A stretch of DNA of 64,000 bases from Cytophagaceae bacterium ABcell3 (GTDB taxonomy: Bacteria > Bacteroidota > Bacteroidia > Cytophagales > Cytophagaceae): NCBI GenBank assembly GCA_030913385.1, contig CP133159.1:2750584-2814583 (forward strand), in the 5' to 3' direction. The first letter of the stretch is position 1. Each line of letters opens with the position of its first letter. Made by a program: the position numbers and the translations under genes. This document shows, one piece after another, positions 7,617-62,693 of the stretch. Below the pieces are notes generated by a model. The model saw only the letters and a list, made by a program, of their open reading frames with translations, had not been told where the DNA came from and searched no databases.

Positions 7617-7628
7617 AATTATTAAATA

Positions 7629-7994
7629 GGATTACCCATTTAAGTCTCTAGAAGTAATAAGTTTTTTGCATGATAAAATGCTTTAAACGGTCTTCCTTAA
7701 GTGACGGTACGTGCCATAGTTAGACAATAAGATGGCCATTGATGAAATTGCGTTAAGAACTTTATAACCATGGAGCGGCCAAAAAATTTGCTGTCTGAGC
7801 CCGACGCAAGGAGGGTGAGTTTCAAATTTTTTAGCGTAATGGTTATAAAGTTTAGCAAATTTCATCACAGGCCTTGACTTTTTTGCTTACTTTTTTTGTC
7901 CAAGAAAAAAAGTAAGGCCTTGCCGGCGAGGCAAAAAGTAACTTAGCTAGCCTATGTAAGCTAATAAAGCATCAGATATCTAAATGGGTAACCC
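7629..7994 (+). mobile_element. Family A MITE-like element, copy 1 (366 bp)
   Basis: Ends are imperfect inverted repeats, GGATTACCCATTTAA on the left and TAAATGGGTAACCC on the right. Flanking 12-bp direct repeats (7617-7628 and 7995-8006) match at 10 of 12 positions, as expected for a target-site duplication that has drifted. The interior contains an A/T-rich dyad near 7880-7920 (TTTTTTTGTCC..AAGAAAAAAA). A second full copy lies at 62131-62503 in the opposite orientation and a deleted copy at 41114-41226. No transposase is encoded, and the only ORF inside is not conserved between copies. Confidence 0.8.
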
Positions 7995-8071
7995 TATTAT
8001 TAAAAACACATTTCCGGATTCAAACAATTAGACGTGGTTTATGTAATTATTATATAATCCATTTGAAAAAT

Positions 8072-41060: not shown

Positions 41061-41112
41061 AAAGTTACAGATATACTAGCGCTGCATTGGCTGTGTATCT
41101 GTAACTATTTTT
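41061..41112 (+). terminator. Stem-loop after the 146-aa gene
   Basis: GTTACAGATA and TATCTGTAAC form a perfect 10-bp stem with a long loop, followed by a short T-run. The long loop makes it a weaker terminator candidate. Confidence 0.5.
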
Positions 41113-41113
41113 A

Positions 41114-41226
41114 TGATTACCCATTTAAGCCTCTAGCGAAGTATAAGTTTTTTACTTGTCTAGCAATATTTTTTAAGTTGTCGTCTTTAAATGGCTGTAT
41201 GTGCCAATATCTAAATGGGTCACTCC
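41114..41226 (+). mobile_element. Family A MITE-like element, internally deleted copy (113 bp)
   Basis: Left end GATTACCCATTTAAG and right end CTAAATGGGT, with the same terminal segments as copy 1 (AAGTTTTTTAC, GTGCCA) but lacking about 250 interior bases. Flanking 12-base segments 41102-41113 and 41227-41238 match at 10 of 12 positions. It sits directly beyond the 3' end of the EEP-family gene. Confidence 0.7.
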
Positions 41227-41240
41227 CTACTATTTTTATG

Positions 41241-61964: not shown

Positions 61965-62130
61965 AAATGTCTTTTTTAAAAGTGAACGATAGGACAGACC
62001 CTTTGAAGCAGGTGATAATCCATTGGAAACAAACCTCTATATGTTGGCTTGTTTTTCATTAACAACTTTTCGCTTTGAAATATAGTTGCCTTCTTTTGTT
62101 TTTACTAACAATTATCTATAAAGAATAATT

Positions 62131-62503
62131 GAGGCGCCGATTTAGTTATCTTAAATGTTATTAGCTGACCAAGGTTCGCTTAGTTACTTTTTGCCTCGCC
62201 GGCAGGGCCTTACTTTTTTTCTTAGACAAAAAAAGTAAGCAAAAAAGTCAAGGCCTGTGATGAAATTTGCTAAACTTTATAACCATTACGCTATCCCGAT
62301 AGCTATCGGGATGAAACTCACCCTCCTTGCGTCGGGCTCAAACAGCAAATTTTTTGGCCGCTTCATGCTTAGAAAGTTCTTAACGCAATTTCATCAATGG
62401 CCGCCTTATTTTCTAACAATTGCACATACCGCCATTTAAAGAAGACAGCTTAAAGGCATAATATCATACAAGTAAAAAACTAATAGGCTCAAATGGGTAA
62501 TCC
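62131..62503 (-). mobile_element. Family A MITE-like element, copy 3 (373 bp)
   Basis: Inverted relative to copy 1. The interior matches closely (for example GCCTCGCCGGCA, TTTGCTAAACTTTATAACCA, TTCTTAACGCAATTTCATCA). It is flanked by perfect 12-bp direct repeats TAAAGAATAATT (62119-62130 and 62504-62515). It carries an inserted 18-base palindrome around CCCGATAGCTATCGGG (about 62295-62310) that copy 1 lacks. The left inverted end has drifted more than the right (AAATGGGTAATCC). Confidence 0.85.
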
Positions 62504-62693
62504 TAAAGAATAATTTTTTGAAACTAGTAAGTAATATACGTTTTTGCTGACACGCGGTTAATGGCTGACAACTGAGACGGTTACATTTGGTGTGCGATTG
62601 GACAATGGTCCTTTTAGCTTTATTGGAGAATATTTTTTAGAATTTTTTTTAAAAAGGGCTTGTTTCGTAAAAATAAATAATGCTATCTTTGCA

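Follow-up and report, generated by a model that had tools for sequence, protein, structure and literature searches.

What is the sequence that recurs three times in a 64,000-nucleotide stretch of the Cytophagaceae bacterium ABcell3 chromosome (the window), what moved it, and what does it carry? An initial annotation had read it as a non-autonomous element mobilised in trans by an IS4-type transposase, with 12-bp target duplications. We put at roughly 70% the probability that the copies are instead MITEs of the IS1595 family, carrying a selected, structure-dependent, protein-read cargo module that unrelated MITEs have spread.

Three copies of a MITE in the window

The features placed in the window are the following.

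7619..7626, no strand: left target duplication of copy 1, TTATTAAA, read from the sequence, with the 8-bp frame backed by flank scoring
7627..7996, + strand: MITE copy 1, 370 bp, TAGGATTACCC...GGGTAACCCTA, from sequence reading, BLAST and end scoring
7733..7936, - strand: conserved core of copy 1 (model match at 7735-7881 on the minus strand; weak match of the reverse complement at 7726-7872)
7997..8004, no strand: right target duplication of copy 1, TTATTAAA, read from the sequence
41105..41112, no strand: left target duplication of copy 2, CTATTTTT, read from the sequence
41113..41229, + strand: MITE copy 2, 117 bp, core removed by an internal deletion; sequence reading, with no model match there
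41230..41237, no strand: right target duplication of copy 2, CTATTTTT, read from the sequence
62121..62128, no strand: left target duplication of copy 3, AAGAATAA, from sequence reading and flank scoring
62129..62505, + strand: MITE copy 3, 377 bp, with a degenerate left TIR; sequence reading, BLAST and end scoring
62189..62403, + strand: conserved core of copy 3 (model match at 62244-62401), with the variable palindrome TCCCGATAGCTATCGGGA inside
62506..62513, no strand: right target duplication of copy 3, AAGAATAA, read from the sequence

Three related copies do lie where the initial annotation had placed them, with true boundaries that by eye fall about 2 bases further out than first stated and with 8-bp flanking repeats. 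Their ends, TAGG(A/G)TTACCC...GGGTAA(T/C)CCTA, are shared far above chance: the window contains five matches to a 16-mer at ≤3 mismatches where 1.03 are expected (none of 100 shuffles reached five), and across the genome a 13-mer at ≤1 mismatch matches 64 times, its reversed control 11 times. The genome BLAST that the annotation had proposed, run with copy 3 against the single contig of 5.115 Mb, returned 41 matches corresponding to 40 places, a lower bound, while a 25-mer from the core was found at 38 places (34 of them exact; 0 for the reversed control). Our census of at least 40 core-bearing copies comes from scoring 40 of 102 first-look candidates and does not count copy 2, which is one of two core-less derivatives with both ends that we saw, the other lying near 1549106 of the same chromosome.

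The repeat is a MITE with an ordinary backbone of a known kind. Like other bacterial MITEs it is short, has TIRs and target duplications, lacks a long ORF (no ORF of at least 100 aa overlaps the 370- and 377-bp window copies) and is dispersed in intergenic regions, 39 of the 40 copies in the source genome overlapping no predicted gene. It differs from them in an interior that is more conserved than the TIRs and is common to MITEs with other ends in other genera. The proposal that copy 3 is the youngest was not borne out: 6 of 20 positions in its left TIR are mismatched, and its identity to the consensus, 92.8%, is below the 97% or more of 10 of the 38 aligned copies. Along the chromosome, the 40 copies found by BLAST form long same-strand runs, for example all minus from 621833 to 2548287.

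The target duplication is 8 bp long

We scored the flanks of 42 elements (the 40 MITE copies, copy 2 and the insertion sequence described below) in the frame N8-TA·GG...CC·TA-N8, and both ends could be placed in 36. A complete 8/8 duplication borders 19 of these (18 MITE copies and the insertion sequence), against a mean of 0.56 and a maximum of 5 in 10,000 for shuffled flanks, whereas a 12/12 match was seen in only two, copy 3 and one other. Across all 36 elements the flanks are identical in 72-92% at positions 3-10 and in 50-58% at positions 1, 2, 11 and 12; in the 25 elements with at least 6/8, these values are 88-100% and 48-72%. Among the 19 elements with 8/8, the element side carries TA in 18 on the right and 17 on the left, but the genomic dinucleotide opposite is TA in only 8 (left) and 4 (right), and therefore the TA belongs to the element. 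The 8-mers themselves are 91% A+T. For copy 2 the script chose a wrong register (3/8), and by eye the duplication is 8/8 with CTATTTTT on both sides, also readable over 12 bases. The target duplication is thus 8 bp and not, as the initial annotation had it, 12 bp.

These data bear directly on the proposed IS4-family origin. A subgroup of that family has direct repeats of 10-13 bp, according to PMC2266710, and the 12-base matches of copy 3 and the other element would suit it. Such matches are confined to 2 of 36 elements, however, and the fall in identity outside the inner eight positions, the TA that is fixed on one side and variable on the other, and the IS1595-type transposase of the insertion sequence with matching ends all speak against it. 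The flank position profile led us to reject an IS4 origin, to which we leave hardly any probability.

An IS1595-family element shares the ends of the MITE

Two loci with a pair of exact ends at about 1 kb from each other were examined. One was an interrupted MITE copy; the other was an insertion sequence with matching termini in the same chromosome, of the sort that the initial annotation had advised looking for.

G000:3283374-3284370 (L061:375-1371): insertion sequence with the MITE ends, 997 bp, TAGGATTACCC...GGGTAATCCTA, with the repeat TAAAGTTT on both sides (8/8)

Its transposase matches PF12762 (47.4 bits, cut-off 27; 2.7e-12), the sole such match in the genome, and NF033547 (105.5, cut-off 75; 3.5e-30), and has a zinc-ribbon region matching PF12760 at 9.2e-05, just under the cut-off; a search of solved structures gave none at E≤0.1. 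In its transposase and in its A/T-rich 8-bp duplications the element thus resembles the IS1595 family, which is related to eukaryotic Merlin elements and whose members are usually bordered by 8-bp duplications (PMC8101967; also PMC12561309). It departs from the family in ends that begin with TAGG in the 8-bp frame, against the 5'-GG reported for the related Merlin elements (PMC8101967), and in a transposase frame with one stop (TAA). The source of mobilisation is likely the IS1595 family, not IS4. The 997-bp element may not itself be the parent of the MITE, because of this stop and because, by eye, the two have little in common beyond their ends; transposition in trans could have been driven by its transposase or by that of a relative since lost.

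Empty sites gave a further line of evidence. The genome sample has no member of the same genus, and this evidence accordingly concerns a related element from another genus of the family, g6, rather than the window copies. There the core lies inside an element with TAGGATTA ends, bordered by eye by perfect 8-bp repeats at two loci (TTTATTAA; ATAAATTA). One locus of this element, occupied in G005, is empty in two sister species, G011 and G018, where a single target copy, diverged, remains; a third sister genome, G015, has a different sequence on the right side and is uninformative. Because of the target duplications, the insertion sequence with the same ends in the genome and the empty site of the related element, the claim of a non-autonomous element mobilised in trans is supported.

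Two inserts within MITE copies and one protein were noted as well. The interrupted MITE copy (L062:309-1353; G000:C1 about 2738906-2739948) has its core split by an insert that by eye has the ends GGTCTATATG/CATAGAGCCC and lies between 8-bp AAAAATTG repeats; we take this insert to be ISL3-like, and its ORF had no match in Pfam. Another copy (L067; G000:C1:3376267-3377980) is split by an insert with, by eye, CAGGGCTGACGCATTTAA ends and a 10-bp repeat ACTTATCGCC. Finally, L078:61-1926 (G000:C1:915933-917798) encodes a 621-aa protein with 7TMR-DISM membrane domains, the C-terminal part of which had no match in Pfam but is similar (39% identity, E 6.7e-21) to the zinc-ribbon region at the N-terminus of the IS1595 transposase; the protein may thus combine a membrane receptor with the DNA-binding domain of a transposase.

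The interior is the conserved part of the MITE

The first reading had not recognised that the interior is the conserved part of the element. We aligned 38 of the 40 copies, dropping those at 2738912 (interrupted) and 4851881 (both ends lost). Substitutions per site fall from 0.118 at positions 41-60 to 0.008 at positions 61-80, a step at position 60/61 that makes the left boundary sharp and not centred; on the right side they rise from 0.036 (261-280) to 0.072 and then 0.171, and interior bins near the variable palindrome and near 221-240 have 0.045-0.058. Over the 36 copies whose end sequence sufficed, the distance from the consensus is 1.3% in the core (positions 61-165 and 186-275, palindrome excluded), 9.0% in the outer parts (1-60 and 286-384) and 7.4% in the outermost 20+20 bases. 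The core, about 200 bp long, is therefore roughly sevenfold less variable than what lies outside it, the TIRs included. Remnants with a broken core look more diverged by eye.

Core and end distances show no significant correlation (Mantel r 0.12, p 0.23), and the palindrome state is shared by nearest end-neighbours in 24 of 36 cases, near chance. Exchange between copies may therefore contribute to the uniformity of the core, and the lack of correlation fits such exchange as well as it fits selection.

The core is a covarying hairpin

We built a model of the core (R1, 147 positions) on 18 cores, among which two-sided changes occur in 6 of 34 pairs. On the modelled strand, the first half consists of a side hairpin, an A-tract followed by TCAAGGC, stem 1, GCTAAA, stem 2, a loop near TTACGC and stem 3; the second half runs through AAACTCG-hairpin-CTCAAACA, stem 3', ACGGCTTCA, stem 2', TTCTTAACGC, stem 1' and AAGGCC. 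Variants exist, and the cores of the G007 group are without the AAACTCG loop. In an alignment of 126 matches (111 distinct rows, 98 loci), which leans towards structure because the model guided its construction and because 26 of the matches are weak antisense ones to copies of the source genome, 92.6% of the paired cells are complementary against 35-44% with slid partners, and two-sided changes occur in 31 of the 34 model pairs.

Wobble pairs are rare in the stems. Stems 1 and 2 together contain 1924 Watson-Crick pairs, 3 G-U, 14 A-C, 157 other and 66 gaps in 123 of 128 extracted cores, namely those with at least 70% Watson-Crick pairs in stem 1 (stem 2 was counted under the same filter). Another count, over 100 of the 126 rows and 26 genomes, found 19 G-U and 9 A-C among 588 distinct cells, with 8 of the G-U at one end pair. 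On the active strand the two counts disagree. Structured RNAs usually retain more G-U pairs, and the rarity of wobble therefore favours pairing that has its role at the DNA level or is restored by template-switch repair.

Some cores have small palindromes in or between the stems (L030, L068, L075), of the form CCTGCC...GGCAGGCAGG. The palindrome TCCCGATAGCTATCGGGA, at 62295-62314 of the window, also occurs in some other cores and has a paired variant, TTCCGAT...ATCGGAA. Sequences like CCCGATAGCTATCGGG have matches elsewhere in the order too.

The core is spread across Bacteroidota in different vehicles

At E≤0.001, R1 matches were found in 26 of 194 genomes of the order (the source genome included), 16 of 93 genera and eight families, with a maximum of at least 16 per genome. 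At least 120 stretches of named genomes matched an exact pattern written for the initial part of the core. Among the matches listed, cores were recognisable by eye in Flammeovirga, Edaphocola, Chryseobacterium, Elizabethkingia, Capnocytophaga, Bergeyella, Vaginella, Faecalibacter, Pedobacter, Sphingobacterium, Filimonas and Bacteroides luti, and in some MAGs labelled Ignavibacteria, Calditrichaeota, Thermotoga or Williamsia; several other matches to the pattern are chance coding matches. The end motif of the core was also present in 84 cores at 81 of the 120 loci scanned. When the phylum was sampled evenly, the exact pattern was present in 12 of 395 genomes (the source genome counted) and 9 of 171 genera, against 1 for the reversed control; this exact-pattern prevalence is a lower bound.

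The vehicle is not always the same. In two genomes of another family (G063 and G114, family f15), the core lies in a MITE with TTTGAAACCGTACAC ends. An exact 9-bp duplication borders 8 of the 16 elements whose right end was found (17 were tried), and the frame is the best of those scanned. In G007, TGTCGTTTAGTTAA-like ends flank 3 of 11 copies on either side, whereas 2 copies have one or degenerate ends and 6 have none. Since both the ends and the lengths of the duplications around the core differ, at least two backbones carry it. A MITE family defined by the TGTCGTTTAGTTAA ends was rejected, as end matches numbered 14 against 11 for the control in G007 and 3 against 11 in G012; G016 had 21 against 12, many at contig ends, and no partner element for these ends was found. 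For the MITE with the 9-bp duplication, two end loci have long ORFs, presumably IS110-like, and we claim no autonomous partner. When TIRs and TSDs were sought automatically around single copies in other genomes, few of the frames were convincing, and we make no claim for the possible ends noticed in G079, G142, Flammeovirga and one G114 locus. Nothing indicating movement was found for cores without ends.

What the core may be

The core is apparently a structurally conserved, undescribed module with a putative function; a literature search on core strings, Bacteroidetes repeats and MITEs found no description of it. In the reading that we favour, an IS1595-family insertion sequence gave rise to the MITE, and the cargo module inside it, about 200 bp long, is made of a side hairpin, an A-tract and a long hairpin whose variable stems are parted by conserved internal loops. 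This module could act as a structure-dependent nucleic-acid signal, probably read at the conserved loops by a protein of the host or of the element, although this analysis found no partner protein. Selection would keep the module, exchange between copies may add to its uniformity within a genome, and unrelated MITEs would spread it. We advance only tentatively, and with some doubt, the narrower proposal that Bacteroidota have in the core an undescribed kind of structured module: a layered hairpin with conserved internal loops that a putative protein recognises when the DNA is folded, and that repeatedly switches between unrelated MITE vehicles and persists under selection after a vehicle has decayed.

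Alternatively, the core could be a transcribed structured RNA or a 3'-end signal on the anti-model strand, merely spread by MITEs, which seems to us rather unlikely. The anti-model strand is co-directional with both neighbouring genes in 18 tandem settings against 2 among the 40 copies of the source genome (11 are convergent, 7 divergent and 2 undetermined), it folds more stably in 24 of 27 representatives, and the excess of A-C over G-U in stems 1 and 2 is what wobble on that strand would give. The strand bias is weak elsewhere, however: in named genomes, among the 50 of 84 cores that have a neighbour no more than 600 bp away on each side, it is 17 to 9, with 16 convergent and 8 divergent, and it is 24 to 18 over all cores (a predicted ORF is overlapped by 9 of the 84). 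Moreover, wobble is rare on either strand and its second count leans the opposite way, and the one terminator-like site of each full window copy lies on the modelled strand. Rfam release 15 has no family for the window at the gathering score, and four loci searched against it at E≤1 gave four weak matches, none on the core; we thus discarded a known RNA family. A core with no function, homogenised by gene conversion and kept paired by template switching that repairs imperfect palindromes, would account for core haplotypes that are independent of end similarity and for the near absence of wobble. It would not be expected to leave unpaired loop motifs common to genera and to the phylum while the ends cannot be aligned, or a conservation boundary that is sharp and off-centre on the left, and we regard it as unlikely.

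The interest of the element lies in a covarying hairpin module that is multicopy in many of the Bacteroidota genomes that carry it and resides in MITEs with differing ends and duplications; with core-bearing MITEs one could test cleanly whether such elements persist in genomes on account of useful cargo. Were a protein to bind or process the core, the module would be a phylum-level counterpart of REP/BIME elements, which are likewise intergenic hairpins dispersed in many copies. It differs from them in size, REPs measuring 21-65 nt (PMC6006769) and the core about 200 bp, and in lying inside MITEs with TIRs. The best published lead to a partner is the description, in PMC6006769, of the RAYT transposases of subclass 2.6, which have atypical secondary structures on their flanks, further copies of these structures occurring at other places in the genome. 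That the core is such an atypical REP structure processed by Bacteroidetes RAYTs is nonetheless very improbable and was set aside: in a partial sample, none of 50 loci around Y1-transposase genes had a model match at E≤1. A looser motif scan also gave 0, though it recognises only 19 of 40 known core loci. Matches to PF01797 occur in 37 of 37 genomes searched, and their presence does not discriminate for that reason. Four of the six in the source genome were inspected, and the two that were read have other palindromes beside them. The palindromes beside these two Y1-transposase (RAYT-like) genes, at L310:1690-1880 and L311:1700-2650, are short, of the GCAAGCTTTTAGCTTGC type and the GTAGCTTGAAGCTAC type, and unrelated to the core.
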